The position numbers and the translations under genes were made by a program. DNA of 41,595 nt from Armatimonadota bacterium (GTDB lineage: Bacteria > Armatimonadota > JAAZEB01): NCBI GenBank assembly GCA_012512505.1, contig JAAZEB010000113.1, forward strand, positions 1-41,595, written 5' to 3'. The notes below the pieces were generated by a model. That model was not told where the DNA came from, did not search any database, and worked only from the letters and a program-made list of their open reading frames with translations. Of the stretch, positions 2,944-35,330 are shown in pieces. How positions within the stretch are numbered: the stretch's first letter is position 1; every line of letters starts with the position of its first letter.

Positions 2944-3090
2944 TTCGGATGCCCTCCTCCGCGGTCGGCACTGCCAGGCCAGGCTGGATCGCCGCCCCAC
3001 GAGCGGCGATCCAGCCCCTCAGCGTCAGCGGTGGTCGGCCGCCTCGGCGATGGCTATGTCGGTGACACGTGACCTACCGGCGCCACGCGG

Positions 3091-11585: not shown

Positions 11586-11665
11586 CGATGCTCCTCCTTT
11601 GCGCGTGGTGCTCAAGGGGAGATACCGCGCCCGAGGGGTGGGTTCCTGTTCGCCGGTGGCGGGCG

Positions 11666-11863
11666 TCAGTTGGGGCCAGGCGCGGGGGGGGCAAGGGGGT
11701 GCCAGGAGCGTCGACGGGGAGGCCGGCGGCGAGGCGTTGGCGGCATGCCCGGCGCCAGCGGCCCGAGCAGCAGCCAGATAACCAGCACGAGGGTGATCCA
11801 GAACCGCCGCCTCCAGGAGGAGCGGCGGCAACCCCAGGCGAGAGGCGCGGTTGCGGCAGACAC
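11666..11863 (-). CDS. Possible small membrane protein
   Basis: This frame would encode 65 residues from a GTG at 11863 that follows a purine-rich stretch (GGAGAGGGGGAAGG) able to act as a ribosome site. The product has one hydrophobic segment (FWITLVLVIWLLLGPLAPG) flanked by arginines, then a proline/arginine-rich tail. It lies upstream of, and on the same strand as, the HZS-alpha-related gene. It resembles no family I know, and the proline/arginine bias is common in chance frames of GC-rich DNA, so it may not be real. Confidence 0.25.
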   Translation of the reverse strand: MSAATAPLAWGCRRSSWRRRFWITLVLVIWLLLGPLAPGMPPTPRRRPPRRRSWHPLAPPAPGPN

Positions 11864-12005
11864 CCTTCCCCCTCTCCGCTTTGGTGCCGTCGGTACGACC
11901 ATGACCGTTCTGGCCGACCGGCGGGCATGGTGGCCCCCTACGAGGAACGCCCCCCGCCGTAGGAGGTGTCCCCAACGCCGATAGGTTGGCGATATCGGGG
12001 TCGGT

Positions 12006-19277: not shown

Positions 19278-21032
19278 CTACTTCCGCTGGATCGCCCCGG
19301 ATCGGCACACCTGCAGGCAGACGCCGCAGCCAAAACAGGCCTCCGGGTTGATGGTGGCTCGCAGCTTGCCATCCTCGCCGCGCACCGAGCCCAGCGCCGG
19401 GCAACCGATGCGGAAGCAGAGCTGACAGCCGGTGCACTCCTCCAGGACGACGGTGGGCGGCTCAGGCCGGACACTGCGCCGCGCCACCAGCGCGCACGGG
19501 CGGTTAGTGATCACCACCGATGGCTTCTCCGTCTGCAGCGCGTAGCGCAGCGCCGTCTCCACCGCCTGAAGGTCGTAGGCATCCACCGTGAGCACGTCCT
19601 CGACGCCGACGGCGCGCACCAGCCCCACCAGGTCGAGGCGCGGCGCGGGGGTGCCGGCCAGCGTCTTGCCGGAGGCCGGATGGTCCTGCCCGCCGGTCAT
19701 CGCCGTGGTGCTGTTGTCGAGGATGCAGAGGGTGATCGGCGTGCTGTTGTAGACGGCGTCCACCAGGCCGGTGATCCCGGAGTGGATGAAGGTGGAATCG
19801 CCGATGACGGCAACCACCGGGCGCTTGTCATCCGGGGCCATGGCACGCCGGATGCCGATGGCGTTGCCGACCGAGGCGCCCATGCAAACGCAGGTATCCA
19901 TCGTCTCCAGCGGGGGCAGCACGCCGAGGGTGTAGCAGCCGATGTCGCCGGCGACGATCGCCTTCAGCTTGCGCAGCACGGTGTAGAAGCCGCGGTGGGG
20001 GCAGCCAGCGCAAAGGACCGGGGGCCGCGCGGGCACGTCTGGCGCGGGGGGCGCCTCCGGCTGCGGTTCGGCCAGCCCCAGGCCGGTGGCAACCGCTTGC
20101 GGGTTCAACTCGCCCAGCAGCGAGAAGCGCTCCTTGCCAACGACTGGGATGCCGAGGGCACGGATCTGCGTCTCCAGGAACGGGTCGAGCTCCTCCACGA
20201 CGTAGAGCGTTTCCACCGAGGCGGCAAACCGGCGCAGGAGTGCCTCCGGGAGGGGATAGGTGAGGCCCAGCTTCAGCACGGAGGCGTGCGGCGCTGCTTC
20301 CTTCACGTACTGATAGCTGATCCCGGAGGTGATCACACCGAGGCGGCGGTCGCCCGGCTCAATGACGTTCACCTCGGCGGTTTCAGCCCAGGCGGCCAGG
20401 CGGCGCAGGCGCTCTTCGACGAGGGTGTGGCGGACGCGCGCGTAGGCCGGGATCATCACGTACTTCTGCGGGTTGCGCTCGAAGCGGTGAGCCGGCGGCG
20501 GCTGTACCTCGCCCAAGCGCACCACCGACTTGCCGTGGTTGACGCGGGTGGTGGTGCGCAGCAGCACCGGGGTATCGAACTCCTCGCTGAGGGCGTAGGC
20601 CCGCACCAGAAAGTCCTTCGCCTCCTGGCTGTCGCTCGGCTCCAGCATCGGAATCTTGGCGAAGCGCGCGTAGTGGCGGTTGTCTTGCTCGTTCTGCGAG
20701 CTGTGCAGGCCCGGGTCATCGGCGCTGACCAGTACCAGGCCGGCGTTGACGCCGGTGTAGGCGGCGGTGAGCAGCGGGTCGGCCGCGACGTTGACGCCGA
20801 CATGCTTCATGGTGGCCAGGGCGCGCGCGCCGCCGTAGGCCGCCCCGAGTGCAACCTCGAGGGCGACCTTCTCGTTTGGCGCCCACTCGGCGTAGACGTC
20901 GGGATATTGAACGAGCGTCTGGAGGATCTCGGTGCTGGGCGTGCCAGGGTAGCCGGCGGCCACGCGAACGCCGGCCTCGTGCGCCCCCCGAGCGATCGCC
21001 TCGTTGCCCGAGAGCAGTACGGCCTTACTCAA
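19278..21032 (-). CDS. iorA: Indolepyruvate:ferredoxin oxidoreductase, alpha subunit
   Basis: This 584-residue thiamine-diphosphate enzyme subunit is the first gene of the operon. The start is the TTG at 21032, which follows GGAGG by eight to nine bases; the upstream ATG at 21122 adds residues that do not fit the family. The N-terminal domain begins KAVLLSGNEAIARGA and has AAGYPGTPSTE. The ThDP-binding site is GDSTFIHSGITGLVDAVYN. The C-terminal 60 residues form a two-[4Fe-4S] ferredoxin domain with CTGCQLC and CFGCGVCLQVC. CAGCPHRGFY is also typical. The enzyme is oxygen-sensitive in known cases and links aromatic amino-acid breakdown to ferredoxin. A good promoter lies upstream at 21138-21166. 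Confidence 0.95.
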   Translation of the reverse strand: MSKAVLLSGNEAIARGAHEAGVRVAAGYPGTPSTEILQTLVQYPDVYAEWAPNEKVALEVALGAAYGGARALATMKHVGVNVAADPLLTAAYTGVNAGLVLVSADDPGLHSSQNEQDNRHYARFAKIPMLEPSDSQEAKDFLVRAYALSEEFDTPVLLRTTTRVNHGKSVVRLGEVQPPPAHRFERNPQKYVMIPAYARVRHTLVEERLRRLAAWAETAEVNVIEPGDRRLGVITSGISYQYVKEAAPHASVLKLGLTYPLPEALLRRFAASVETLYVVEELDPFLETQIRALGIPVVGKERFSLLGELNPQAVATGLGLAEPQPEAPPAPDVPARPPVLCAGCPHRGFYTVLRKLKAIVAGDIGCYTLGVLPPLETMDTCVCMGASVGNAIGIRRAMAPDDKRPVVAVIGDSTFIHSGITGLVDAVYNSTPITLCILDNSTTAMTGGQDHPASGKTLAGTPAPRLDLVGLVRAVGVEDVLTVDAYDLQAVETALRYALQTEKPSVVITNRPCALVARRSVRPEPPTVVLEECTGCQLCFRIGCPALGSVRGEDGKLRATINPEACFGCGVCLQVCRSGAIQRK

Positions 21033-21137
21033 TGGTGGGTGGTCCTCCGCGAATTCGGTAGATAGAGCTTGGGGCAATCCAAAACAGAGCCGCAAGAGGC
21101 TGGGGGAGAGCGCCCAAAGCACTCATCATCTCACCCC

Positions 21138-21282: not shown

Positions 21283-22881
21283 ATGGTGGGCGTGGCGCGG
21301 TATCTGGCGGATTTCGAGGCGTTCTGCCGGGTGGGGCTGAGGCGCACGCTGCGGCCCTACCAGGTGCTGCCGGCGCAGGCGATCATCCGCTCGGTGCTTG
21401 GGCGGGAGGGCCAGACGATCACCGTCTTGATGGCGCGCCAGGCGGGCAAGAACGAGCTGCTGGCGTGCGTGGCCCTCTGGCTGCTGCTGCGCCTGCCGGG
21501 AATCAAGATCGGCGTTTACGCCCCGACGCTGCCGCAGGCGGTGGACATCAGCATGCGGCGCATCAAGCGGCACTTCCGCCGGCTCTACGGCCGCCTGGCA
21601 CGCGAGGCGGGCGAAGGCGCGCCGCGGCGACGGGGCGATACCGCGCGCCGCTCCACCGCCCCGCGGGTGCTGGCGCTTCCCACGGAGCCGCTGCTGGTGC
21701 CCTGGCCGGTGGTGGACCGACAGGAGTTCCTCGAGCTGCCCGTCCTGGAACAGCAAGGCGGCCCCTTTGCCGCGCGCGAAGAGGGATCGCTGCTGGGCGC
21801 CTACTCCGCGGAGAAAGGCGCCGAGAAGGAAGGCTTCACCTGGGATCTGATCCTCTACGACGAGGCGCAGGAGATCGACCGCGACGTGATCGACGAGGAG
21901 ATTGCTCCCACCGGCGCGGCGACCAGCGCCACGGAGGTCTTCATCGGCACCCCCTACCGGATCGACTGCAAGTTCTACGATGTGATTCAGGCGGTGAAGG
22001 AGCGGCGCTTGCCGGGCGCCTGTTTCGAGTACTCCTACGAGGCAGTGGTGCCGCACGTGCCCGAATACGGCCGCTTCGTGGCGAAGAAGGCGGCGGAGTT
22101 GGGGCGCGACTCGGTGGCGTTCCGCACCCAGTACGCCCTGGAGTGGGTGCATGGTCTGGGGATGTTCTTCGATTACGAGGTGTTTACCACCCTGGCCCGG
22201 GAGGAAGAGGAGTTCCTCTCTTGCCGGCCGGCGGGGCCACGCGGCGCCAGGGGGATCGACGAGGCGCCAGAGCCGCCGCCCGCCTTCGCCGTGGGCATTG
22301 ACCTGGCGGGAGACGATCCCGGCCGCACCGGCCGCACCGACTACACCGCGATCGCCGTGCTGCGCTGCGACGGTGACCTGAAAACGCTGGTGGACCTCCA
22401 CGCCTGGCAGGGGAAAGACTGGGAGCGCCAGCACGAGGAGATTGTGCGCCTGCTGCGGCGGCTCCCCGGGCGGGCGCGGGTCGCGATTGATGCCACCGGC
22501 ATGGGCGACCCGTTCAGCGACCGCCTCCAGAAGGCGCTGGCTGGCCGGCCGGTGGCCATCGAGCGGCTGCGGCTTACCGCGTCGATCAAGTCGGAAGTGG
22601 GCCTCTACGCCGAGCAGGAGGTGGCCGGCGAGCGGGTCTTCTATGCCGCTGGGCCGGCAACGCGCGCGGCGGGGCAGTTGGAGGAGTTCCTGCACCAGGT
22701 GCGTTGGCTGGTGCGCGAGCACCTGGCGGAGAAGGCGGTGCGCTGGTACGTCAGCCCGGACAAGGGCCACGACGACCTGGTGTGCGCCTTTTTCCTGGCG
22801 CTGTGGGCGGCCCGGCGCTCACCCGTGCCGCGGCTGGCGCTGGGGGATCTGGCCAGCATGGGCAGCGCCTCCTTCGGCTAA
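21283..22881 (+). CDS. Phage terminase large subunit
   Basis: This 532-residue DNA-packaging motor protein would bind the portal and cut and pump DNA into the head. The ATG follows GGGAGGTGAG. The ATPase domain has a Walker A-like MARQAGKNE (residues 50-58) and Walker B LILYDEAQE (189-197, acidic pair D193/E194), with IGTPYRID as the coupling region. The RNase H-like nuclease has VGIDLAGDD (D340), VAIDATGMGDP (D403) and GHDDLVCAF (D497/D498). An unusual stretch at about 108-172, between the Walker motifs, is longer than in most terminases. The nuclease acidic residues are all present, so the protein looks intact. Confidence 0.93.
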   Translation: MVGVARYLADFEAFCRVGLRRTLRPYQVLPAQAIIRSVLGREGQTITVLMARQAGKNELLACVALWLLLRLPGIKIGVYAPTLPQAVDISMRRIKRHFRRLYGRLAREAGEGAPRRRGDTARRSTAPRVLALPTEPLLVPWPVVDRQEFLELPVLEQQGGPFAAREEGSLLGAYSAEKGAEKEGFTWDLILYDEAQEIDRDVIDEEIAPTGAATSATEVFIGTPYRIDCKFYDVIQAVKERRLPGACFEYSYEAVVPHVPEYGRFVAKKAAELGRDSVAFRTQYALEWVHGLGMFFDYEVFTTLAREEEEFLSCRPAGPRGARGIDEAPEPPPAFAVGIDLAGDDPGRTGRTDYTAIAVLRCDGDLKTLVDLHAWQGKDWERQHEEIVRLLRRLPGRARVAIDATGMGDPFSDRLQKALAGRPVAIERLRLTASIKSEVGLYAEQEVAGERVFYAAGPATRAAGQLEEFLHQVRWLVREHLAEKAVRWYVSPDKGHDDLVCAFFLALWAARRSPVPRLALGDLASMGSASFG

Positions 22882-22890
22882 CCGGCAAGG

Positions 22891-25800
22891 ATGCCAGCGA
22901 ATGCTCGCGCGCTGCGTAACTTGCGGCGAATGGGGGAACCAGAGTCTGTAGACATGCCCAGCATTGAGGAGCATCCAGAGCAGGCGGCGCCAGCGGGGGC
23001 GACCACGCTCGGGAGCGCCGCGAAGGCCTCCCGACGTGACGAGGTGCGCTATCGGCGCCTGGTCGAGTCGAATATCATCGCCGTGATCACCGCCAACATG
23101 CGGGGCGAGGTGCTGGATGGGAACGACGCCTTCCTCCAGATGGTCGGTTACACCCGTGAGGAGCTGCAGGCGGGGGCGATCCGCTGGGATCGAATGATCC
23201 CTCCCGAGCAGCTCCCGCGGGCCGCCCAGGCGGTGGAGCAGTTGCGGGCAACCGGGGTGGCTTCCCCTTGGGAGACCGACTGGATCCGCAAAGACGGCAC
23301 CCGAGTCCCGGTGCTGATCGGCGTGGCGCTGCTTCCCGACGAAGCGGAGGAGACGACGATCGCCTTCGTGGTGGACCTGACGGAGCGCCGCCGGGCACAA
23401 GAGGCGCAGGCGCGGCAGCTCCACCAACTGCAGCACATCTACCACCTCACCGAGGCCGTCGGCCGGGCAACCGAGGTCCAGGAGATCTACGCGGAGGCGC
23501 TGGATGTCCTGCACGACATCGCGGGTGCCGACCGGGCGGCGGTGATCCTCTGCGATCCGGACGGCGTTCCCCGCTTCAAGGCATGGCGCGGGCTGTCGGA
23601 TGAGTACCGCCAGCGGGTGGCCGGCCGCTATCCCTGGTTCACCGACTCGCAAGATCCTCGGCCGGGGCAGGTGCCGGACGCACAGGGGGATCCCGCCCTG
23701 AGCCCGCTGCACGAGGCGTTTGCCGCGGAGGGGATTGGCGCCCTGGCGTTCATCCCGCTACTCTACGGAGGGCGCCTGCTCGGCAAGCTGATGCTCTATA
23801 GCAATCGGCCGCGCCACTTTGGCGATGAGGAGATGCAGTTGGCGCAGACGGTGGCCGGGCACGTGGCATTCGCCATCGGCCGGCACCGCTTCGAGCGCGC
23901 GCTGCGTGCCAGCGAGGAACGCTTCCGCACCCTCAGCCTCTCTGCCCCAATCGGGATCTTCGAGTTGGACGCACAGGGGCGCTGCACCTACGTGAACCCG
24001 CGCTGGAGCGAGATCACCGGGGTGCCCCCGGAGCGCGGCCTGGGCCTGGAGTGGCTGGAGACGATCCACCCGGAGGACCGGGCGATGATCGAGCGGGCCC
24101 GGGAGCAGACGGTGCGGGATGGCAGCGAGTGGTCGCACGAGATTCGCCTGCAGACGCCGAGTGGGGTGCGGTGGGTGCGGGTGCGGGGGGCACCGGTACA
24201 CGACAGCGAGGGCCACATCACCGGCTATGTCGGCAGCATCGAGGATGTCACCGAGTCGCGGCGCACGCGCGAAAATCAGCAGTTCATTGCCCACGCGGGC
24301 GAGGAGCTGGCCGCCTCGCTGGAGCACGCGGGGGTGCTGCAGCGGATCGCCGAGCTGGCGGTGCCCTACCTGGCAGATATCTGCGTGGCCGAGGAGGTGC
24401 GCGATGGCCGGCTGCACAACGCTGCCACCGCCAGCGCCGACCCGGCCAAACTGGCGGTGCTGCGGGAGATCGAGCGGCGCTACCGGTTTGTCCCCCGCAG
24501 CACCCAGGGGCTGGTGCGGGTGTTGCGCGCTGGGAAGCCGCGGCTCTATCGCTCCGTGCCGGCGGGGGCCTGGCGCGCGGTGGCGCTGGACAGCCGCCAC
24601 CTGCGGCTGCTGCGACGGCTGGGGGTGCGCTCGGGGATCATCGCGCCGCTCATCGCGCGGGGGCGCACCCTCGGGGCGATCCTGTTTGGGACGGCGGAGT
24701 CCGGGCGGGTATACGGGGCCGCCGACGTGGCGCTGGCGGAGGAGCTCACCCGCCGGGCGGCACTGGCGCTGGACAACGCCCGGCTCTACCAGGAGGCCCA
24801 GGAGGCCAACCAGGCCAAGGACCAGTTTCTGGCGGTGCTGTCGCACGAGCTGCGCAACCCGCTGGCGCCGATCCTGGCCGGCATGGAGATCCTGCGCCGG
24901 GCTGCCCCGGACGAGCCGCGAGTGCAGCGCACCGTGACGGTCGTCGAGCGCAGCGTGAAGCTACAGGCGCGCCTGGTGAACGATTTACTGGATCTGTCGC
25001 GCATCCGGCGGGGCAAGATCCAGCTCCAGCGTGCCCCGGTGGTGCTCGACGCCGTCGTGGAATCGGCGGTGCAGGCGATGCAGGCGGACGCGGACGAGGC
25101 GGGCCTGACGCTGCAGGTGCATGTGGAGCCGGACCTGTGGGTGTACGGCGACTTCGACCGCCTGCAGCAGGTGGTGATGAACCTCCTCTCCAACGCGATC
25201 AAGTTCACTCCGGCGGGGGGCCAGATTCAGGTGGAAGCCTGGGAGTGTCGCCATGGCGCTGGGGGGCTGACGGCGCCCCGGCGGCAGGCCGAGCGTCCCG
25301 CCCAGCCGGCGAGCCCGGTGTTTGGGACAGCGCCAGCGGCGCGCGCGGGCTGCCTGACGGTGGAGGATACTGGCATTGGGATCAGCCGCGAGCTGCTGCC
25401 CCGCTTGTTTGACATGTTCCGGCAGGGGGAGGTGGCGGGAAAGCGCACTTCCGGTTTAGGAATCGGCCTGGCGCTGGTGCGGTCGATCACCGAGTTGCAC
25501 GAAGGGCGGGTGTGGGCGGAAAGCGAGGGGCCCGGCAAGGGGAGCCGCTTCAGCGTGGAGCTGCCGCTGATTCCGAAGCCGGAGGCGACCGCCCCGCAGG
25601 CGCCGCCCGCGAGGGCGGAGGGGGTGCGCCTGCTCCTGGTGGAGGACAACCCCGACACCCGCGCGCTGATCGCCGAAGGCCTGGCGCACCTGGGCTACCG
25701 GGTGGAGACAACGGCCAGCGGGGAGGAGGCGCTGGATCTGATCCGGCGCCGGCCGCCGCAGGTGATCCTCTCCGACATCGCCCTGCCGGGGATGGATGGC

Positions 25801-25995
25801 TATGCCCTGCTGCGGCAGGCGCGCCAGCTCCCGGAGCTGGCCGGCGTACCAGCGTTCGCCGTGACCGGCTACGGGCGCGAGGAGGACGTGCGCCAGGCGC
25901 AGGAGGCCGGCTTCACCGGCCACTTCGCCAAACCGGTCGATGTGGCGGTGATCGACCAGCGGATCCGCGAGCAGCTTGGCGCCCGGCGCGGATAG
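22891..25995 (+). CDS. Hybrid sensor histidine kinase (PAS-GAF-PAS-GAF-HisKA-HATPase-REC)
   Basis: This 1,034-residue cytoplasmic sensor kinase has no transmembrane segment. Domains in order: PAS (about 50-165, NDAFLQMVGYTREEL), GAF (185-335), PAS plus PAC (343-458, YVNPRWSEITGVP), GAF (470-632), HisKA with phospho-acceptor H652 in SHELRNPLAPIL, HATPase with N-box MNLLSNAIKF (763-772), DTGIGI (826-831) and GLGIGLALV (855-863), then a receiver domain with D962 in SDIALPGMDGY and K1014. A 40-residue low-complexity insert lies between the N and G1 boxes. The start is uncertain: the ATG at 22891 has only a very close AAGG, but lies nine bases after the terminase stop. It sits between terminase and portal, where a kinase is not expected. 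All catalytic residues are present. The receiver's output partner is not in the window. Confidence 0.93.
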   Translation: MPANARALRNLRRMGEPESVDMPSIEEHPEQAAPAGATTLGSAAKASRRDEVRYRRLVESNIIAVITANMRGEVLDGNDAFLQMVGYTREELQAGAIRWDRMIPPEQLPRAAQAVEQLRATGVASPWETDWIRKDGTRVPVLIGVALLPDEAEETTIAFVVDLTERRRAQEAQARQLHQLQHIYHLTEAVGRATEVQEIYAEALDVLHDIAGADRAAVILCDPDGVPRFKAWRGLSDEYRQRVAGRYPWFTDSQDPRPGQVPDAQGDPALSPLHEAFAAEGIGALAFIPLLYGGRLLGKLMLYSNRPRHFGDEEMQLAQTVAGHVAFAIGRHRFERALRASEERFRTLSLSAPIGIFELDAQGRCTYVNPRWSEITGVPPERGLGLEWLETIHPEDRAMIERAREQTVRDGSEWSHEIRLQTPSGVRWVRVRGAPVHDSEGHITGYVGSIEDVTESRRTRENQQFIAHAGEELAASLEHAGVLQRIAELAVPYLADICVAEEVRDGRLHNAATASADPAKLAVLREIERRYRFVPRSTQGLVRVLRAGKPRLYRSVPAGAWRAVALDSRHLRLLRRLGVRSGIIAPLIARGRTLGAILFGTAESGRVYGAADVALAEELTRRAALALDNARLYQEAQEANQAKDQFLAVLSHELRNPLAPILAGMEILRRAAPDEPRVQRTVTVVERSVKLQARLVNDLLDLSRIRRGKIQLQRAPVVLDAVVESAVQAMQADADEAGLTLQVHVEPDLWVYGDFDRLQQVVMNLLSNAIKFTPAGGQIQVEAWECRHGAGGLTAPRRQAERPAQPASPVFGTAPAARAGCLTVEDTGIGISRELLPRLFDMFRQGEVAGKRTSGLGIGLALVRSITELHEGRVWAESEGPGKGSRFSVELPLIPKPEATAPQAPPARAEGVRLLLVEDNPDTRALIAEGLAHLGYRVETTASGEEALDLIRRRPPQVILSDIALPGMDGYALLRQARQLPELAGVPAFAVTGYGREEDVRQAQEAGFTGHFAKPVDVAVIDQRIREQLGARRG

Positions 25996-26000
25996 CGCGG

Positions 26001-26118
26001 GTGGCCGTAAACGACCCCCCTGACCAAGGGACAGGCCGCGATACCGTCGCGGACGCAATGCACCGGCCCAGCGCCCCGCCGGGTGCTTGTCCCCCGGATT
26101 AGGAGCGTCGTTCACGGC
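26001..26118. repeat. Imperfect inverted-repeat element
   Basis: Arms of about 36 bases face each other at 26001-26036 and 26082-26118. They share GCCGT-AACGAC at the outer end and GGGACA-GC at the inner end, with scattered mismatches. The middle holds two further small hairpins, CGCGA/TCGCG and CCGGC/GCCGG. It looks like a small non-coding mobile or REP-type element. It lies right after the kinase stop and before the portal, so it marks the downstream edge of the kinase gene. Confidence 0.5.
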
Positions 26119-26165
26119 ACCTGACACCTAACACCTATCACCTGTCACCTATCACCTACTCACCT
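26116..26165. repeat. Heptanucleotide tandem array (NNCACCT)
   Basis: Seven copies of a 7-base unit follow one another: GG, GA, AA, AT, GT, AT and ACT each before CACCT. Only the first two bases vary. A degenerate version of the same motif on the opposite strand overlaps the start codon of the gene at 8421-11585 (11557-11585). Heptameric arrays of this kind are known in cyanobacteria and some other genomes; their function is not established. The array ends about 23 bases before the portal start codon. Confidence 0.7.
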
Positions 26166-26188
26166 GGCGCCCACGAGAGGAGATCCCG

Positions 26189-27448
26189 ATGAGCAGCATT
26201 CTGCGGCGCGTGTCCCGTCTGCTGCGTGGCGCAACGCCGCCGCGTCCCACCACCGCGGTCGGCCTGGAGAACGCGGACACCGTTCTCCTTGGGCTGTTCG
26301 CTGACACCGGCGGCGGCCGGCTCCAGCTCTACGACGATGTGGAGCGCATGGACGACGAGTGTGCCGAAGCGGCGGCGGCGCTCGACACCATCGCCTCCCT
26401 GGCGAGTGCCTCGCCCGAGGGAGAGGAGACCCCCTTCCGCATCGAGTGGGGGGCGGGCACCCCGACCGGGGCGCAGGAGACGGTAGAGGCGGCGATCCGG
26501 CGGGCGCGTCTGGGCCCCAAGACGTTCTCGTTCTGCCGCGACGCGGCGAAGTACGGCGATGCGTTCCTGGAGGTGGTGCTGGATGACGCGCTGGCGGTGG
26601 TGCGCCTGAAGCACCTGCCCGCCCGGCAGCTCTTTCGCGAGGAAGGGCCGCACGGCCAGTTGCTCGACCCGGCGTTCACCCAGCGCCAGTATCCGGGGGG
26701 CGCGCCACTGGTGGCGTTCCATCCCTGGCAGGTGGTCCACCTGCGCTGGAGTCATCAGGGGGAGCGGCGTTACGGGCGCTCGCACCTGGCGGTGGCGCGC
26801 GCCATCTGGAAGCGGCTGCGTCCCTTGGAAGACTCGATGCGGGTGGCACGCCTGGAGCGCGGCTACGACAAGCTGGTCCACTACGTCGAGATTCCGCCGG
26901 AGGCCAGCTTGGCGGAGGCGCAGAAGCGGCTGGAGGACTATCGGCGGCGCACCGGCGCGCGCCTGGTGCACAACCCGGAAACCGGCGCGTATGACCTGCT
27001 GCGGCAGGCGCCTACGGTGCGCACCGACTTCTACGTGCCGGTGAGCCGCACCGACGCCGGGGCGGTTGCCGGAGGCGACATCAAGCTGCTGGCGGCCGAC
27101 AACGCGCAGTTGGCGCATGTGGAAGACGTGGAATACCTGCACCGCCAGCTCATCTGCGCCCTGCGGGTGCCGGCGGCGTTCCTTGGCTTCGAGCGTGAGG
27201 TGAACGCGCGGGCCACCCTGGCCCAGCAGTTCGCCGAGTTCGCGCGCACGATCCGCCGTGCCCAGGGCGTGCTCGCCGCGGGCTACCGGCAGGTGCTGGA
27301 CCTGCAGCTACTCCTGCACGGCTGGGATCCGGCCCGCCTCGACTACCGGATCGTCTGGCCAGAGGTGCGGGTGGAGGACGAGCGCGTCCGTGCCGAAGCG
27401 GAGCGCTATCGGATGGCCACGGCCTCCATCTCGCCGGCCAGCCGCTGA
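26189..27448 (+). CDS. Phage portal protein (T4 gp20-like)
   Basis: This 419-residue protein would form the dodecameric portal vertex through which terminase loads DNA. The ATG follows GAGAGGAG by six bases. Family-like features are the YVEIPPEASLAEAQKRLEDYRRR region, the TDFYVPVSR segment, then KLLAADNAQLAHVEDVEYL and CALRVPAAFLG, which resemble the gp20 pattern of a VEYF segment before an ALNVP motif. It is shorter than T4 gp20 (524 residues), mainly at the C-terminus. Its last 43 bases overlap the end of a minus-strand gene. The assignment rests on these motifs plus the neighbours. Confidence 0.85.
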   Translation: MSSILRRVSRLLRGATPPRPTTAVGLENADTVLLGLFADTGGGRLQLYDDVERMDDECAEAAAALDTIASLASASPEGEETPFRIEWGAGTPTGAQETVEAAIRRARLGPKTFSFCRDAAKYGDAFLEVVLDDALAVVRLKHLPARQLFREEGPHGQLLDPAFTQRQYPGGAPLVAFHPWQVVHLRWSHQGERRYGRSHLAVARAIWKRLRPLEDSMRVARLERGYDKLVHYVEIPPEASLAEAQKRLEDYRRRTGARLVHNPETGAYDLLRQAPTVRTDFYVPVSRTDAGAVAGGDIKLLAADNAQLAHVEDVEYLHRQLICALRVPAAFLGFEREVNARATLAQQFAEFARTIRRAQGVLAAGYRQVLDLQLLLHGWDPARLDYRIVWPEVRVEDERVRAEAERYRMATASISPASR

Positions 27449-27684
27449 AGCAGCACCAGCACCTCGCCGATTGCCTCCGCCATCTCCCGGCCGACGGACG
27501 GCGCCTCCTGCCAGCCGGATTCGGGATCGGCCCGCCCGACCAGCACCTCGCGCGCGGCACTCAGCCACGCGGTGTAGAGGTCGCTCGTTTCCGCCCCGAC
27601 CGCGTCCTCCGCGAAGGCGGTGGCGGTCCACTGCAGCTCTTGCCCTTCCTGGATCAGCTCCTCGATGTGGAGGTAAGTGTGCAT
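27406..27684 (-). CDS. Small hypothetical protein, antisense to portal 3' end
   Basis: This frame encodes 92 residues from an ATG at 27684 with GAGGAG six bases upstream, a better ribosome site than chance frames show. The protein is acidic, rich in Glu, Ala and Leu, and looks helical throughout (HIEELIQEGQELQW, EMAEAIGEVLVLLQRLAGEMEAV). No signal peptide, membrane segment or known motif is visible. It runs against the phage head genes and overlaps the portal gene by 43 bases, so the two transcripts converge. It could be a small regulator or antitoxin-like protein, but nothing shows this. Chance occurrence is possible. Confidence 0.5.
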   Translation of the reverse strand: MHTYLHIEELIQEGQELQWTATAFAEDAVGAETSDLYTAWLSAAREVLVGRADPESGWQEAPSVGREMAEAIGEVLVLLQRLAGEMEAVAIR

Positions 27685-27728
27685 CCGTAACTCCTCAGAG
27701 CAGCCGTTCGCCCGATGTAGAAGGGGTC

Positions 27729-27762
27729 CTACGATGGCCGGCGGGACGCCGGCGATCCGACC
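27729..27762. repeat. Short palindromic repeat, copy 1
   Basis: A 34-base element built on GCCGGCGGGACGCCGGC, flanked by CCTACG and ATCCGACC. A closely similar copy occurs at 32617-32651. It lies in the 209-base gap before the protease gene, which shows no other feature. Confidence 0.6.
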
Positions 27763-27893
27763 TTTCGGCGTTGGAGACGCCTCGACGGCAACGGGTGTCG
27801 GGCGAGGCGCACCCGTGCCATGCCACTTGTCTCGCCTATACCACGCCGGCGGGCCGGCCTCCTGCCGCCCCGGCCGGCAGAGGAGGTGCTCCC

Positions 27894-28913
27894 TTGAACG
27901 TTCTCACCGAGCAGATTCCCTCGCGCCTGGAGGTGCTGCGCGATCCATCGGGCCGCGGCGAGCTGTTCCGCTTCCGGGGCACGGCCCTAGTGCAGGGCGG
28001 CCTCTCGCGCAACGGGCGCTACTATCCGCCGGAGGTGGTGGCCGCCGCCATGGCTCAGGCGCGCACCGCCCCCCTCACCATCTACGCCCGCCACCGCGAA
28101 GCCGTGGAGGGCTCCGGACTGCCCGTCGGGCGCGTGGATCGCCTTTACCTCGACGGGCCGGCGCTGAAGTACGAGGCGCGGCTGGCGCCTACCCGCCTGG
28201 GCCACGACCTGCGCGCCCTGATCGAGGGAGGGTTCCTCGCGGGGGCCAGCATCCGGGCCTGCCCCTACGCCAGCCACCCGGTGCGCCTGGGCGACCGCGA
28301 CGTGGAATGGGTCGACTCGCTCACCCTGCGCGGCATCGACTTTACCGACGAGCCGGGCGTGCCCGAGGCGGCCGGCTTTGAGATCCTGGAGGAGGCGCTG
28401 GTGGCCGGCCATCGCTGCCGCGGCGGCAGCCCGGGCTCGGCCCACCAGACGCTGGAGGAGAAAAGGATGGACCTGCAATCGTTGGACCTGGCGGCGCTGC
28501 GCGCGCAGCGCCCGGATCTGCTGGCGGCGGTGCGCGCCGAGGCCGCCGCGGCGCTGGAGGAAGTGCGCCGGCTGCTCGGCGTGGCCGATGCCGACGCGGT
28601 TTGCCAGGTGGTGCGCGAGCTGGTGCGCCTGCGCGCGCGCCAGGAGATTGCTGACCTGGTGGATGCCGAGTTGGCGAGCGATCCGTCGCGGGCGGCGATC
28701 CGCGCCCGCCTGGTCGAGGAGTGTGGCAGCCTGGCAGAGGCCCGCCAGCGCCTGGAGCGCGAGCGCGCCTACGCGGCCGAGCTGCGGCGCGGCCTCCTGG
28801 CCGCCGGCAACCTCCACCCGCCCGACGCGCGTGGCCAGGGGCTGGTGGAGAACGCCGAGGACGCGGTGCTGGACCCCGAGCGGGCCCACATCCGCCGCCT
28901 GGCCGGGCTGTGA
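27894..28913 (+). CDS. Prohead protease (T4 gp21-like) fused to scaffold-like C-terminal region
   Basis: This 339-residue protein starts at the TTG at 27894, seven bases after AGGAGG; the frame upstream has no ribosome site. Residues 1-165 look like a prohead maturation protease: GTALVQGGLSRNGRYYP (29-45) is the gp21-type opening, H67 in ARHREA and S119 in AGASIRA are the expected catalytic pair, and DFTDEPGVPEA closes the domain. Residues 190-339 are almost all helix, with many Ala, Glu and Arg (EVRRLLGVADADAV, RQRLERERAYAAELR), as in scaffolding proteins. The scaffold part also has its own likely start (next entry). The protease would cleave scaffold and capsid tails as the head matures. 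It lies directly before the major capsid gene. Confidence 0.82.
   Translation: MNVLTEQIPSRLEVLRDPSGRGELFRFRGTALVQGGLSRNGRYYPPEVVAAAMAQARTAPLTIYARHREAVEGSGLPVGRVDRLYLDGPALKYEARLAPTRLGHDLRALIEGGFLAGASIRACPYASHPVRLGDRDVEWVDSLTLRGIDFTDEPGVPEAAGFEILEEALVAGHRCRGGSPGSAHQTLEEKRMDLQSLDLAALRAQRPDLLAAVRAEAAAALEEVRRLLGVADADAVCQVVRELVRLRARQEIADLVDAELASDPSRAAIRARLVEECGSLAEARQRLERERAYAAELRRGLLAAGNLHPPDARGQGLVENAEDAVLDPERAHIRRLAGL
28467..28913 (+). CDS. Nested in-frame scaffold protein start
   Basis: An ATG at 28467, in the same frame as the protease gene (residue 192), is preceded by GGAGGAGAAAAGG, a ribosome site at least as good as the gene's own. Translation from it would give a 148-residue, helix-rich scaffold protein identical to the C-terminal region of the fusion. 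The arrangement copies phage lambda C/Nu3, where scaffold is made from an internal start of the protease gene. This is inferred from the ribosome site and the change of sequence character at this point. Confidence 0.55.
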   Translation: MDLQSLDLAALRAQRPDLLAAVRAEAAAALEEVRRLLGVADADAVCQVVRELVRLRARQEIADLVDAELASDPSRAAIRARLVEECGSLAEARQRLERERAYAAELRRGLLAAGNLHPPDARGQGLVENAEDAVLDPERAHIRRLAGL

Positions 28914-29039
28914 GCACGGCCCTTGACTGTCGGCACTGACCCGGCGCGTGGCCTTCGGCCGGCCGTTCCCTGGCCGCCAGAGCCGGTTCTGAGCAACGCG
29001 AGGGAACGCCCGCGCGGCCGTGGAGGAAGGAAGCGAGTG

Positions 29040-30254
29040 ATGCACCCCTTGAGAGAAGAGCAGCAGCGCATGGAGGCGCTGGTACGCAAGCATGCCTGGA
29101 TCCTGGAGGGGATCGAGGGCGAGCGCCCGCGGCGCGTTCTCGCCCAGTTGGTGGAGAACCAGCAGGCCTACACCCGCGGCCTGCTGGAAGACACGACGAC
29201 CGCCGACCTGGCGATGCCCCAGGTCTACGCCACGGCGCTGATCCGCAAGGTGTACCCGGCGCTGGTGGCGCAGCAACTCGCCAGCGTGCAGCCGCTGCGC
29301 GGCCCGAACGGCAAGGTGTTCTACCTCGACCATGTGAAGGAGGCGGTGGTCACCTTCCTGACAGCCAGTGCCGCCGGCAGCCAGCCGCTGATCGAGGTAG
29401 ACAGCGCCTACGGCCTGACGGTGGGAGACGTGGTGACGATCGGCAGCGGCGGTGAGGCGGAGACCAAGGTGATCGCCGCGATCACCCACAAAAGCGTCAC
29501 CCTGACGGAGAACCTGGCCGCCGCCCACGCCAAGAACGAACCGGTGCAGCGGGCCTACACGACCTCGCGTACCACCGAGGGGGGCGCCGTGGCCCGGGCG
29601 CGCCTGTCGCTGACCAGCGTGGACGTGGTGGCCCAGAAGCACGCTCTGGCTGTTGCCTGGACCTCGGAGGCCGCCGAGGATCTGCGCGCCACACACAGCC
29701 TCGACGCCGAAGCGGAGCTGATCGACGCCGTGGCCGGCGAGATCGTGCGCGAGATCGACCGGGGAATCCTGAGCGACATGCTGGTCAACGCCGGCGCTGG
29801 CACCATCCCCTGGAGTGCTACCCGGGAGGAAGGCTTCACCGAGCCGGAGTGGCGCCGCACGATCTACGACGCCATCGCCGATGCCAGCAACGCCATCTTC
29901 AAGCGGCGCTACCGCCCCGCCGACTTCCTGGTGGCCGATGCCGACACCGTCGGGCGCCTGGAGAAGCTGGAAGAGTTCCGATTGGATAGCGGCGACCGGC
30001 CGGCGGTCGGCGTGCAGCGCGTCGGGCGGCTGAATGGGCGCTGGGACGTCTTCAAGGCGCCCGAGTTTCCCCCCGACCGCATCCTGGTGGGCATTCGCGG
30101 GGATGGCTACGTCTACGCGCCCTATGTGCCGCTCACGCTGACCCCGGCCCACTACGACGCCAACACCGACACCTGGATCCGCAGCCTCCGCACCCGCGCC
30201 GCGCAGCGGCTGACGGTGCCCGACGCCTACGCCGTGGTCGCGATCACGCCTTGA
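29040..30254 (+). CDS. Major capsid protein (T4 gp23-like, HK97 fold)
   Basis: This 404-residue protein would form the head shell. The ATG at 29040 follows GGAGGAAGGAAG; the upstream frame to 28923 lacks family-like sequence. The stretch IRKVYPALVAQQLASVQPL with GPNGKVFYLD (residues 68-97) is the characteristic gp23-type motif before the capsid core. Residues of about 102-172 (EVDSAYGLTVGDVVTIGSG onward) look like an inserted beta domain. After it come DVVAQKHALAVAWTSEAAEDLRA and DFLVADADTVGRLEKL, typical of the capsid core. The N-terminal 40 residues are helical and charged and could be the part removed by the protease. It is shorter than T4 gp23 (521). Confidence 0.85.
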   Translation: MHPLREEQQRMEALVRKHAWILEGIEGERPRRVLAQLVENQQAYTRGLLEDTTTADLAMPQVYATALIRKVYPALVAQQLASVQPLRGPNGKVFYLDHVKEAVVTFLTASAAGSQPLIEVDSAYGLTVGDVVTIGSGGEAETKVIAAITHKSVTLTENLAAAHAKNEPVQRAYTTSRTTEGGAVARARLSLTSVDVVAQKHALAVAWTSEAAEDLRATHSLDAEAELIDAVAGEIVREIDRGILSDMLVNAGAGTIPWSATREEGFTEPEWRRTIYDAIADASNAIFKRRYRPADFLVADADTVGRLEKLEEFRLDSGDRPAVGVQRVGRLNGRWDVFKAPEFPPDRILVGIRGDGYVYAPYVPLTLTPAHYDANTDTWIRSLRTRAAQRLTVPDAYAVVAITP

Positions 30255-30291
30255 TGGTCGGCGGTGGTGGTGGGGCGGTTGGGTGTCGCCA

Positions 30292-30310
30292 GGGGGCCGA
30301 TCTGGCCCCC
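30292..30310 (+). terminator. Hairpin after the capsid gene
   Basis: GGGGGCC and GGCCCCC form a 7-bp stem around GATCT, with further pairing outside (GGCGGTGG with CCACCGCC). It lies 38 bases after the capsid stop codon and has no T-run. It could trim downstream expression relative to capsid or protect the 3' end of the capsid message. Confidence 0.4.
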
Positions 30311-30353
30311 CACCGCCTCACCACCGGAAGATTGGAAGAAAGGAGGGAGCAAG

Positions 30354-30737
30354 ATGATCGCGGATCGCTTTCAGCGGGCTTGCTTCAAGCCGGGGGTGGC
30401 GGTAGTCCACCGGCTGGCGGTCGCCGCGCCGGATACCGCCGACCCGGCAGGCCCGGGGGCGGCGGTGAGCAGCCTCGGCTATCAGCGGGTGCGCTTCGAC
30501 GTGGACACGAGCCTGTCGGAGGGGCTGACCGGGCTCACCCTGCAGCCGCTGCTGTGGAACGCGACGGCGGGACGCTTCTTTGCCGGCCCAAAGGTGGCGC
30601 TGACGAGCAGCGATCTGGACGGCTGCCCGGCGATCTATCTCGACGTGGAGACGCGCGGGGCGGAGGCGGTCTTCCTCAAGGTGGCCGCCGCGACGGCCAC
30701 CGCGCTGGCGGTGGACATCTACGCCACGCCGTGGTAG
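30354..30737 (+). CDS. Hypothetical phage head protein
   Basis: This frame encodes 127 residues from an ATG with AAAGGAGG about seven bases upstream. It lies just after the major capsid gene. It has no membrane segment and is rich in Ala, Val, Leu and Thr with strand-like alternation (YQRVRFDVDTSLSEGLTGL, AEAVFLKVAAATATALAV), so it is probably an all-beta protein. By position it could be a head decoration or fibre protein. I recognise no family. Confidence 0.7.
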   Translation: MIADRFQRACFKPGVAVVHRLAVAAPDTADPAGPGAAVSSLGYQRVRFDVDTSLSEGLTGLTLQPLLWNATAGRFFAGPKVALTSSDLDGCPAIYLDVETRGAEAVFLKVAAATATALAVDIYATPW

Positions 30738-30800
30738 GTCAGCCGGCAGTGGGCCGCCACCCCGAAAGGCGCACGAGCGTGCTGCGAAAGGAGGGCGAGG

Positions 30801-31379
30801 ATGACGCTTGCCGAGTGGGTTGACGCGCTGAACGGGCGCATCAAAGACGGCGAGAACGTCCTGTTCACGGTGGCGGAGAAGGAGGCGCACCTGGCGGCGG
30901 CGGTGGAGGAGTATAGCCGCCGCCGCCCGCGGGTGTTCGACGTGGAGCTGCACACCGCTGCCGGCCAGCAGTGCTACCCGCTGCCCGCCGGGTGCCTGTG
31001 GGTGGTGCAGGTGGCGCTACCAACGCCTGCCAGCGCCGAAGGACCGGCTGCGGCGGCGGAGTGTCTCGCCGGGCAGCGCGGCTGGCTGGAGCAGGATGGA
31101 ACGTTGTGGCTCTTCCCGGCGCCGTCGGCGGCCGGCCTGACGTTCCGCCTCACCTGCGCCGGCGTCTGGAGCGCGGAGACGGTGCCGGCGGCAGACCAGG
31201 ACCTGGTGCTGACGCTGGCGCACGCCAACTGCTGCCAGGTGCTGGCCACCGACGCGGCGCGGGCGTTCACCTTCTGGGTGGGTGACGAGAAGTTCGACAA
31301 GAGCGCGGTGAGCGCCCACTACCTGGCCCTGGCGGAGGCGCTGCGCACCCAGGCTCGCCGCGCCCTCACGCGCCGCTGA
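30801..31379 (+). CDS. Putative head-tail connector / head completion protein
   Basis: This 192-residue protein has an AAAGGAGGGCGAGG ribosome site. It opens with helices (LAEWVDALNGRIKDGENV, HLAAAVEEYSRRRP), has a beta-rich middle, and ends in helices (LTLAHANCCQVLATDAARA, KSAVSAHYLALAEALRTQARRAL). The helical opening with AVEEYSRRRPRVFDVEL resembles gp6-like connector proteins that follow capsid genes. Position (third after capsid, before a small adaptor) supports this. The call is based on layout and general pattern rather than a diagnostic motif. Confidence 0.55.
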   Translation: MTLAEWVDALNGRIKDGENVLFTVAEKEAHLAAAVEEYSRRRPRVFDVELHTAAGQQCYPLPAGCLWVVQVALPTPASAEGPAAAAECLAGQRGWLEQDGTLWLFPAPSAAGLTFRLTCAGVWSAETVPAADQDLVLTLAHANCCQVLATDAARAFTFWVGDEKFDKSAVSAHYLALAEALRTQARRALTRR

Positions 31380-31397
31380 GGGGACAGGCCGGAGGTG

Positions 31398-31435
31398 AGG
31401 TGGCACGGTGGTTGGCGACAGCCACCGCGCCACCT
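31398..31435. other. Intergenic stem-loop
   Basis: AGGTGGCACGGTGG (31398-31411) pairs with CCACCGCGCCACCT (31422-31435) with one mismatch, around a 10-base loop. It fills most of the 72-base gap between two head genes and lies 17 bases before the next start codon. It could act on mRNA stability or on translation of the next gene. No T-run follows. Confidence 0.55.
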
Positions 31436-31451
31436 GACTGGGGGAGGGGAG

Positions 31452-31799
31452 ATGCTGACCAACTGGGATCTGGACGCGGCGGTGGCCGGTGTGGCGGCCC
31501 TGCGCGAGGCAGTGGGCGAGCCGGTCACCTGGCGCGATTATCAGGGCACCGGCGGTAACCCGCCCGGCCCCACCTACCAGGAGAGCGTCATCCGGGCACT
31601 CTTCCGCCCGGTGCCGCCCGGGCTGATCTCTTCCGGGCTCTATATGAAGAATGATCTGCAGATGGTCACTGGGGTGGCGGTGGTGCCGGGCGATGAGATC
31701 GTGCGCTTTGGCGACACCTACACGGTGCTCGACCAGCCGTTCGTGCGCCGTCTGAGCGACCGTGTTGTTGCCTACGAGACGAAAGTGCGCAAGGTGTAG
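31452..31799 (+). CDS. Putative head-tail adaptor
   Basis: This 115-residue protein starts at the ATG at 31452, next to a GGGGAGGGGAG run. It has a charged helical opening (NWDLDAAVAGVAALREAV) and then a beta-rich part (ESVIRALFRPVPPG, GVAVVPGDEIVRFGDTYTVL). A GDEIVRFGDTYTV-type ending, where a small barrel reads a measured value back, is common in stopper or adaptor proteins between head and tail. The call is inferred from size, fold pattern and position; there is no diagnostic motif. No tail gene follows it. Confidence 0.5.
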   Translation: MLTNWDLDAAVAGVAALREAVGEPVTWRDYQGTGGNPPGPTYQESVIRALFRPVPPGLISSGLYMKNDLQMVTGVAVVPGDEIVRFGDTYTVLDQPFVRRLSDRVVAYETKVRKV

Positions 31800-31890
31800 C
31801 CCCACGCGCCGTGAGAGTCGCGGCACGGAAGGGGAGCGGCGCCGTTGGCACCGGGGGCGGCACCGCCCACCGGCGCGAAAGGAGAGCGTG

Positions 31891-32181
31891 ATGGACTGGC
31901 AAGTGATGGCCGGCTGGCTGGCAGCGGCCGGGGTAGCGATCTGGGCGTTTGCCCGCCGAAACCGGCAGGCGATCCTGCTGCACGCTGCCGAGGCGGTGGC
32001 GTTCGCCGAGAAGTACTACGGGGGCGCCAGCGACGAGACGTTGGAGCGCGAGGCGCTGCGCTACGTGGCGCAGTATTGGCCCGCGGTGCCGGTGCCACTG
32101 GTGCGCCTGGCGGTGCGTGAGGTTTGCCGCCGCCGCAAAGAGCGCGCCCGCGGCCTGGCCACCCTCAAGCCGACGGGCTAG
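31891..32181 (+). CDS. Small membrane protein, possible phage holin (LL-H type)
   Basis: This 96-residue protein has an AAAGGAGAG ribosome site. One hydrophobic segment near the N-terminus (MAGWLAAAGVAIWAFA) is followed by a charged helical part (LLHAAEAVAFAEKYYGG, TLEREALRYVAQYWPAVPV) and a basic tail. Holins of the LL-H family have this plan: one N-terminal helix, an A-x-x-A-E repeat and a basic end. No endolysin gene follows, so this may instead be a simple membrane anchor. It is the last gene of the head cassette. Confidence 0.45.
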   Translation: MDWQVMAGWLAAAGVAIWAFARRNRQAILLHAAEAVAFAEKYYGGASDETLEREALRYVAQYWPAVPVPLVRLAVREVCRRRKERARGLATLKPTG

Positions 32182-32835: not shown

Positions 32836-32960
32836 GCTCGCGTAGGCTCGCCGGGCCGTGCCGCGAACGGCCGGCGGCGAGCGCCCTTTTGAGTTAAGGC
32901 ATCGCCAGAGTGCAGGCACCGGGGAGACCCGGCGGCGCTGCAGGGGAGGGAGAGGCCACC

Positions 32961-35330
32961 ATGAGCATTCGCCAGGTTGCCAACAAACAGAGCGCAGTGG
33001 CGGACTCTGGAAAGGTATGGAAGCACGGGCTGCTGCTGGCCCTGCTCCTTGGGTTCTCGGGGTTGCTGCTGGGAGGTGTCGCCGTCTACCGCAACGCCGC
33101 GCCGATCCCGCGGCAGATTGTTGGCCCGGATGGCCAGGTGTTGGCCACGGCCGCCGACATCCAGAAGGGGAAAGAAACCTATCAGCGCCTCGGGTTGATG
33201 GACTATGGCTCGGTGTTGGGCCACGGCGCCTACCTAGGGCAAGACTTCACCGCCGAGTCGCTGCACCTCACCGTGGGCGCCATGCGCGACTACCACGCGC
33301 AGCAGCGGTACGGCCGGCCCTACGCGGCGTTGAGCACCGATGAGCAGGCCTCCATCGCTGCCCAGGTGAAGCGCGAAATCCGCACGAACCGCTACGACCC
33401 GCAGAGCGGCACGCTGACGCTCACCGCCGCCCAGGTGGCTAGCCTGCGGGCCGTCGAGCAGCACTACCGCGCCCTGTTCGACCGAGGGTTTCCGGAGCGC
33501 GCCCTGCCGGCCGGAATGCTGGCGGCCGACTCGCCCGAGGCCGGGCAGATCGCCCAGTTCTTCGCCTGGACCTCCTGGCTCTCCGCCGTGCAGCGGCCCG
33601 GCCAGAACCACTCCTTCACCAACAACTGGCCCTACGATGAGGATGCCGGCAACACCGCCACCTTCGGCGCGCTGATCTGGAGCGCCGCCAGCGTGGCGCT
33701 GCTGCTGGTCTTCCTGGGGTTGATCCTCTTCGTGCATCACCGCTACCGCCTGGCGATGCAGCAGGCCTACCGCGACGGCGACTTCCCCCGCATTGAGCCG
33801 GGCAAGCTGCCGCTGACGCCGAGCCAGCGCGCCACGGCGAAGTACTTCGCGGTGGTGGTGGCGCTCTTCCTGGCGCAGTCGCTGCTGGGCGGCTTGATGG
33901 CGCACTACTACGTCAACGGCAGCACCTTCTACGGCATCGACCTGAGCCGGATCCTGCCGTTCCACATCGCCCGCACCTGGCACCTGCAGCTCGCCGTCTT
34001 CTGGATCGCCACCGCGTGGCTGGGCCTCGGCATCTTCGTGGCGCCAATCGTCAGCGGGCGGGAGCCGAAACGCCAGAAGCTGCTGGTGAACGTCCTCTTT
34101 GGGGCGTTGGTGCTGGTAGTGGTCGGCAGCCTGGCCGGCGAGTGGCTGGGCGCCACCGGCCGCCTCGGCAATCTCTGGTTCCTGCTGGGGCACCAGGGCT
34201 GGGAGTACCTGGAGCTAGGCCGCATCTGGCAGGTGCTGCTGGCGGCTGGTCTGGGCATCTGGCTGTTTATCGTCTACCGCGCCCTGCGCGGCGCCCTGAA
34301 GGCTGAGAGTGACCGCGGTGGCCTGACCCACCTGCTGCTCTACAGCGCCATCTCGATCCCGTTCTTCTACGGCTTCGCCTTCCTGGTGAACCCGAGCACG
34401 CACCTCACCATGTCCGACTACTGGCGCTGGTGGGTGATCCACCTCTGGGTGGAGGGGATGTTCGAGGTCTTCGCCGTGGTGGTGATCGGCTTCCTGATGG
34501 TAAACATGGGGCTGGTGACGCGCCGCTCCGCCGTGCGCGCGCTCTACTTCCAGCTCCTGATCCTGCTGGCCAGCGGCGTCATCGGCACCGGCCACCACTA
34601 CTACTGGATCGGCGCCCCCGAGATGTGGATTGCCCTGGGCGCGGTCTTCTCCGCCCTGGAGGTGATCCCGCTCTCGCTGCTGGCGATGGAGGCCTACGAC
34701 CAGTACAAGGTGGTGCAGGCCGGCGGGGTCGATTTCGGCTACAAGGTGACGTTCTGGTTCCTGCTGGCAACGGCGTTCTGGAACCTGTTCGGGGCCGGGG
34801 TGCTCGGCTTCTTCATCAACCTGCCGTTCGTGAGCTACTTCCAGCACGGCTCCTTCCTGACGGCGGCGCACGGCCACGGCGCGCTGATGGGCGTCTACGG
34901 CATGCTCGCCATCGCCCTGATGACGTTCGCCCTGCGCAACACCGTGCGGGAGAACGCCTGGAACGAGCGGCTGCTGAAGGTGGCCTTCTGGGGCCTCAAC
35001 CTCGGCTTGATGGGGATGATCTGGACCACGCTGGTGCCGGTGGGCTGGCTGCAGCTCCTCGCCAGCTACGAGCAAGGCTTCTGGCACGCGCGCTCCTTCG
35101 AGTTCTACCAGACGCCGCTGGTGCAGACGCTGCTGTGGGTGCGCATCTTGCCCGACAGCGTCTTCATCGCCTTCGGCTGTGTGCCGCTGCTGATCGCCGT
35201 GGTGCGCGCCTGGCTCAACCAGCGAGAAGCGACCGTCGGCGAGGAGGCCTTCCCGCCGATTCGCAACCTGGAGGAGGTGTCTATGGAGTGGATTGAGCCG
35301 GTGCGCGAGCCAGCCGCCGCCGGCGACTGA
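32961..35330 (+). CDS. norB: Nitric oxide reductase, quinol-dependent (qNor)
   Basis: This 789-residue inner-membrane enzyme reduces two NO to N2O with electrons from quinol. The ATG at 32961 follows a GGGGAGGGAGAGG run; the earlier in-frame ATG at 32910 lacks one. The N-terminal hydrophobic helix is followed by a periplasmic domain of about 200 residues without CxxCH, as in qNor rather than cNor. The catalytic core has the expected ligands: FHIARTWHLQL, HLWVEGMFEV with the conserved Glu, GTGHHYYWIG, and HGHGALMGVYGM. About 14 helices are seen. No NorC or Nor accessory gene is nearby. A CRP/FNR-type site lies upstream. It could detoxify NO or serve in partial denitrification. Confidence 0.95.
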   Translation: MSIRQVANKQSAVADSGKVWKHGLLLALLLGFSGLLLGGVAVYRNAAPIPRQIVGPDGQVLATAADIQKGKETYQRLGLMDYGSVLGHGAYLGQDFTAESLHLTVGAMRDYHAQQRYGRPYAALSTDEQASIAAQVKREIRTNRYDPQSGTLTLTAAQVASLRAVEQHYRALFDRGFPERALPAGMLAADSPEAGQIAQFFAWTSWLSAVQRPGQNHSFTNNWPYDEDAGNTATFGALIWSAASVALLLVFLGLILFVHHRYRLAMQQAYRDGDFPRIEPGKLPLTPSQRATAKYFAVVVALFLAQSLLGGLMAHYYVNGSTFYGIDLSRILPFHIARTWHLQLAVFWIATAWLGLGIFVAPIVSGREPKRQKLLVNVLFGALVLVVVGSLAGEWLGATGRLGNLWFLLGHQGWEYLELGRIWQVLLAAGLGIWLFIVYRALRGALKAESDRGGLTHLLLYSAISIPFFYGFAFLVNPSTHLTMSDYWRWWVIHLWVEGMFEVFAVVVIGFLMVNMGLVTRRSAVRALYFQLLILLASGVIGTGHHYYWIGAPEMWIALGAVFSALEVIPLSLLAMEAYDQYKVVQAGGVDFGYKVTFWFLLATAFWNLFGAGVLGFFINLPFVSYFQHGSFLTAAHGHGALMGVYGMLAIALMTFALRNTVRENAWNERLLKVAFWGLNLGLMGMIWTTLVPVGWLQLLASYEQGFWHARSFEFYQTPLVQTLLWVRILPDSVFIAFGCVPLLIAVVRAWLNQREATVGEEAFPPIRNLEEVSMEWIEPVREPAAAGD

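Follow-up and report, generated by a model that had tools for sequence, protein, structure and literature searches.

A T4-type phage head gene cassette without a recognized tail module in one Armatimonadota family

Head genes at the locus

The window analyzed here, a stretch of 41,595 nucleotides from an Armatimonadota bacterium (assembly GCA_012512505.1, contig JAAZEB010000113.1), carries at positions 21283-32181 a cassette of phage head genes encoding a large terminase (TerL), a portal, a protease/scaffold protein, a capsid protein, an adaptor, the head-closure protein Hc1 and a small membrane protein (Table 1). An initial annotation had described a T4-like head cassette at this place. In family searches of the window proteins, TerL, portal, capsid, adaptor and Hc1 were indeed recognized by family models, most of the matches lying far above chance, while the support for the protease was weaker. 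Two genes had been missed in that earlier reading, namely a hybrid histidine kinase within the cassette and a small antisense gene (orfX) between portal and protease. The cassette was compared within a family sample consisting of the window genome (G000) and two relatives (G001 and G002), which represent three genera and are all metagenome-assembled genomes (MAGs).

The start of the major capsid protein was moved from position 28923 to the ATG at 29040, and a profile built from the capsids of the three genomes reached the gp23 entries of the PDB at 2e-12 to 7e-12. The gp21-type protease is the weakest of the head-gene assignments, its hhalign comparison to gp21 of cyanophage Syn9 giving an E-value of 1.5e-4 and a probability of only 51%. 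Residues H71 (ARHR) and S123 (GASIRA) of this protein are invariant in all three family genomes, and the motifs suggest that they are candidate catalytic residues. In the AlphaFold model of the protease, confidence was confined to helices; the model was regarded as too uncertain and was dropped for the fold search. The antisense gene orfX, in which codon position 3 is the most variable, was modeled as mostly helical with medium confidence (predicted local distance difference test, pLDDT, 65). Its counterparts in the relatives (L006:12155-12412 and L007:4809-5129, both on the minus strand) are likewise located between portal and protease and belong to no known family. No match was obtained for g6 in Pfam and PHROG-type family searches or for g9 in the family searches; the latter is a putative holin or other small membrane protein, its position being holin-like.

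Family searches recognized no tail, integrase, replication or phage-type regulator gene in the window. No small terminase was identified near TerL, the window contains no tRNA, and the two ends of the cassette have no word of at least 11 bases in common, an att-type end repeat not being found. Outside the cassette, Pfam assigned host functions only (symporter, fucosidase, PaaK, IorAB, qNor, MoaA/MoaC/MoeA), and the gene following the cassette is a host qNor, as had been stated. The initial annotation was thus right in reporting that tail, integrase and replication genes are missing. For lysis genes its statement goes too far, since g9 is holin-like in position and the relatives carry a lysis-type M23 peptidase, so that some lysis function may be present.

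Table 1. Genes of the head cassette and its two borders, with window positions and amino acid identity to the counterparts in the relatives.
Feature	Position	Strand	Family match or basis	Relatives
Left border: host iorA, then iorB-ACT-paaK	19278..21122	-	IorAB reading from sequence	
terL, large terminase	21283..22881	+	phrog_2 3e-19, Terminase_6C 2e-4	72% (G001), motifs kept
TerL motifs			MARQAGKNE (Walker A-like), ILYDEAQ (Walker B), nuclease acidic D340/D403/D497-D498	
Hybrid histidine kinase, 1034 aa, PAS-GAF-PAS-GAF-HisKA-HATPase-REC	22891..25995	+	Pfam to 1e-29	
Portal, T4 gp20 type	26189..27448	+	Portal_T4 1.2e-20; PDB gp20 chains 5e-8 (profile)	71% (G001), 70% (G002)
orfX, small antisense gene, 91 aa	27406..27684	-	Same place and strand in 3/3 family genomes	56% / 48%
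Prohead protease fused to C-terminal helical scaffold-like region	27894..28913	+	phrog_207 1.3e-3; TTG start inferred	
Major capsid protein, gp23 type	29040..30254	+	Gp23 PF07068 6.5e-43	~74-75% (G001), ~61-62% (G002)
g6, small conserved protein after capsid	30354..30737	+		52-54% (G001)
Head adaptor, SU10 type	30801..31379	+	SU10_adaptor PF24175 6e-8	65% / 58%
Hc1 head-closure protein (stopper)	31452..31799	+	phrog_161 7e-5	73% (G001)
g9, 96 aa, hydrophobic N-terminus	31891..32181	+		67-71% (G001), cassette end there too
Right border: host qNor	32910..35330	+	NorB cytochrome-c-like 1e-61, COX1 2.5e-54	

Conservation and divergence of the cassette

The window and G001 have in common the order TerL, variable slot, portal, orfX, protease, capsid, g6, second variable slot, adaptor, Hc1 and g9, of which G002 retains the middle part. 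In G001 the complete order is TerL, M23 peptidase, portal, antisense orfX, protease, capsid, g6, fibre-like protein, adaptor, Hc1 and g9, followed by a host thioesterase. A single contig of G002 contains M23 peptidase, portal, orfX, protease, capsid and adaptor; a gene for a DUF2142 membrane protein lies on the opposite strand, and host-type genes are found around or within the cassette on this contig. The sole TerL of G002 is intact and located on a separate 5.4-kb contig (L164:2717-4459, minus strand), where it lies among host genes and adjoins a ccmF-like gene (identified as such from its sequence).

The slot between TerL and portal is occupied by the kinase in the window and by the M23 peptidase in G001 and G002. 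No M23 peptidase was found at this slot in G000, and no significant M23 leftover was detected in the window. The kinase is of host type, being one of more than 100 related matches per genome, and its best full relatives reach 45-61%. The second slot, between capsid and adaptor, contains nothing, a fibre or small proteins. The fibre-like protein inside the G001 cassette (L006:15296-17020) comprises 574 amino acids with repeated GGFTDGRYGYLVP motifs and has no counterpart in G000 or G002.

The capsid gene is present in single copy in each of the three family genomes (100, 74 and 62% identity), and none of the other genomes among 291 Armatimonadota (288 outside the family) passed the Gp23 cut-off. 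A protein search revealed a 70-residue capsid match at 6e-6 in one further Armatimonadota genome. The best capsid match among 50,697 phage records showed at most 37% identity. When IMG/VR was scanned for capsid, portal, protease and Hc1, no relative emerged, although distant ones could escape the short peptide patterns used, and a TerL scan of viral contigs returned relatives at 24-31% only. Free-virus relatives were rejected on the basis of the empty scans with the former four proteins, and plasmid carriage was rejected as well, given that the portal matched just three Brevibacillus/Aneurinibacillus plasmid records at 26-28%.

The environmental phage contigs L008 and L012 carry an adaptor-related protein after the capsid genes. 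In the environmental contigs with the nearest TerL and adaptor relatives, more large genes follow beyond the adaptor region; they are not called tail genes here because they have no family match. An f1-like orphan TerL in G247 (L165:3253-4878, minus strand), whose neighbors are acetyltransferase genes, was not counted as a family member, as the tree places it among environmental phages.

The search of the three family genomes for tail and helper-phage genes covered three families, namely the sheath domain, PhageMin_Tail and Phage_portal (HK97-type portal). PhageMin_Tail and Phage_portal were absent from all three genomes and no tape measure was found. The sheath domain had no match in G001 and G002 and was found once in G000 (L034:984-2498), in an orphan gene with an apparent signal sequence that adjoins groEL and a permease gene.

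The gene order within the cassette is kept in the relatives, but its place between iorA and norB, which the initial annotation had proposed to look for in related genomes, is not. The genes iorA-iorB-paaK are syntenic in contig C32 of G001 with 74-81% identity, and the cassette is not there. Likewise, the pyruvate:ferredoxin oxidoreductase gene next to the G001 cassette sits elsewhere in G000, without a cassette. TerL, portal and capsid of the window share 71-75% of their residues with those of G001, and the compared cassette proteins overall are 52-75% identical, a range overlapped by that of the sampled syntenic host genes (~53 to 81%). Fourfold-site differences gave the same picture, with values of 0.36-0.62 for the cassette and overlapping values of 0.47-0.61 for host genes. 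The ratio of nonsynonymous to synonymous substitution rates (dN/dS), a rough measure here because synonymous sites are near saturation, was 0.19-0.61 for the cassette (0.19-0.50 without orfX) and 0.10-0.19 for iorA, iorB and paaK. All compared head genes are open reading frames in up to three genera, and the compared cassette genes are under purifying selection. A dN/dS near one accompanied by stop codons, which the initial annotation had named as evidence that would speak against its view, was looked for and did not occur. The conserved gene order and dN/dS values of about 0.2-0.5 argue against recent decay.

A probable head locus of a gene transfer agent-like system

Taken together, the sequence data suggest that a phage head module was domesticated in one Armatimonadota family and kept there as this cassette, which is probably the head locus of a multi-locus gene transfer agent (GTA)-like system. 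The data argue for a tail that is located elsewhere, unrecognizable or absent. Decay is made less likely by the intact state of the same tail-less set in three genera, and the detached but intact TerL of G002, together with the lack of an integrase, of end repeats and of an HK97-type helper portal, argues against a satellite or an active prophage. Among the four origins considered in the initial annotation, a domesticated particle and a GTA split between loci are supported by the single copy in all three genomes, the purifying selection and the detached G002 TerL, whereas a satellite and a prophage remnant are disfavored.

GTAs are characterized by structural proteins derived from caudoviricetes, by being endogenised, often at several loci, and by mostly vertical inheritance with co-diversification with the host; in addition, they package mostly random host DNA, their particle is too small for the GTA genome, and the DNA is delivered to cells (PMC9662315). 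Two of these six traits were found in the cassette, namely the caudoviricete-derived structural proteins and the endogenised state, the latter indicated by host flanks in the window and G001 and by the separate TerL in G002. Vertical inheritance would fit the presence in all three family genomes and a divergence overlapping that of host genes, yet the comparison comprises just three genomes and non-syntenic sites. Like the known GTAs (Rhodogtaviriformidae RcGTA, BaGTA, BhGTA), the cassette has phage head genes in single copy that are apparently inherited vertically and distributed over multiple loci, with no integrase or replication genes; unlike them, it has a head of the T4/gp23 type and no tail was found. 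As far as the sequence tells, it behaves as a GTA head locus, while membership among the GTAs is not established.

T4-type phages such as cyanophage Syn9 and RM378 resemble the cassette in having gp20, gp21 and gp23 homologs in that order. However, TerL and the adaptor of the cassette are closer to smaller environmental phage modules, sheath, tube, neck and replication genes are lacking, and the identity does not exceed 37%. The contractile tail and replication genes of a T4-type tailed phage or prophage were not found, and host genes are present at both cassette ends.

The gene content suggests how particle formation, packaging of host DNA, lysis and delivery might proceed. A gp23-type shell would be nucleated by the T4-type portal together with the protease/scaffold protein, and the protease would then mature it. 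TerL would then fill the head with DNA, not necessarily with the cassette's own genes, and adaptor and Hc1 would close the portal. Cell lysis may release the particles, in the relatives through the small membrane protein together with the M23 peptidase; the window lineage would have lost this peptidase and has the sensor kinase in its place. Delivery would need either an unrecognized tail locus or tail-free uptake.

Several observations weigh against a domesticated GTA-like head locus. The chromosomal site of the cassette differs between the genomes, which leaves room for repeated acquisition or movement of the cassette, and the fibre-like protein of G001 would equally fit a virus. A divergent tail would escape a search that covered three families, the comparison includes just three genomes, all of them MAGs, and with synonymous sites this close to saturation purifying selection can be seen but no precise age.

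Capsid-forming phage-inducible chromosomal islands (cf-PICIs) encode head, protease, portal, connectors and terminase but no tail (PMC10690885). A satellite of this kind, whose self-made heads would be filled with the satellite's DNA and fitted with the tails of a helper phage, would account for the content of the cassette, which like cf-PICIs and related satellites (e.g., MulchRoom) has its own capsid, protease, portal, connectors and TerL without a tail, and also for an insertion site that varies between genomes. In contrast to these satellites, however, the cassette lacks integrase, replication and HNH genes, and no small terminase was identified in it. Phage-type regulator and terminal repeat are missing from the window too, and between the flanking host genes of G001 there is likewise no integrase or replication gene. 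In G002, the genes are split between loci and TerL lies on another contig among host genes, so that the set is not packageable as one unit there; moreover, none of the three genomes has an HK97-type helper portal, and the divergence of the cassette is vertical-like. We therefore consider a satellite quite unlikely. A decaying prophage remnant that has lost its tail, integrase and replication genes appears very improbable. Losses and replacements did occur, as seen in the missing M23 peptidase of G000, the detached TerL of G002 and the inserted host-type genes, but every head gene compared has kept its reading frame, across as many as three genera, with 52-75% identity and a dN/dS well below 1, and the window and G001 have an identical tail-less extent from TerL to g9, which is not expected from independent decay.

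The cassette could also be tail-less by design. Its heads would then serve as a store or an export vehicle for host DNA, which would reach recipients such as competent relatives, following lysis, with no tail involved. This would agree with the absence of the tested tail families from all three genomes apart from the orphan sheath-domain gene, with the retention of adaptor and stopper, which seal the filled head, and with the fibre-like protein of G001, which could sit on the head. Nevertheless, the genome-wide search spanned only three phage families, adaptor and Hc1 normally also serve in tail attachment, and a literature search turned up no precedent, which makes this explanation improbable. 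More broadly, judging from the genes, it is unlikely that a T4-type head was domesticated as a tail-less DNA-packaging particle, be it a GTA or a DNA export device without any tail. The missing tail poses the direct question of whether a domesticated phage head can move DNA without a tail of its own.

The known GTAs that have been proven by experiment stem from few lineages, and the conserved Armatimonadota cassette with its T4/gp23-type head would represent a GTA-like system of independent origin.

Mu-type terminases and other observations

The TerL profile detected a relative in 93 further Armatimonadota genomes, mostly one per genome (L166-L199; e.g., L175:9417-11834, L167:8789-11205 and L171:9654-16140). 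Almost all of the examined genes belong to a single type; a Mu-type portal often follows, and otherwise they stand by themselves amid host genes. This Mu-type TerL is present in many Armatimonadota families; it is conserved within two of them, and its neighbors are shared in several genomes. Capsid and protease genes occur near TerL in G120 and G174, and the compact Mu-type head module of G217 extends up to a host carbohydrate-binding gene and includes no recognized tail gene. In the TerL tree, the Mu-type proteins form a clade of their own, apart from the window family. They resemble another GTA-like set, dispersed and spread across the phylum, suggesting that GTA-like systems could be common in the little-cultured Armatimonadota. 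Together with a tail-less particle of the T4 type, unlikely as the latter is, they would mean that Armatimonadota recruited phage heads at least twice.

Elsewhere in the window, two proteins (positions 145-3000 and 8424-11975, minus strand) contain a hydrazine synthase alpha middle domain (PF18582) amid c-type cytochrome domains. At positions 37095-38036, within a molybdenum cofactor cluster, MoaC is fused to a molybdopterin-binding (MogA/MoaB-like) domain.

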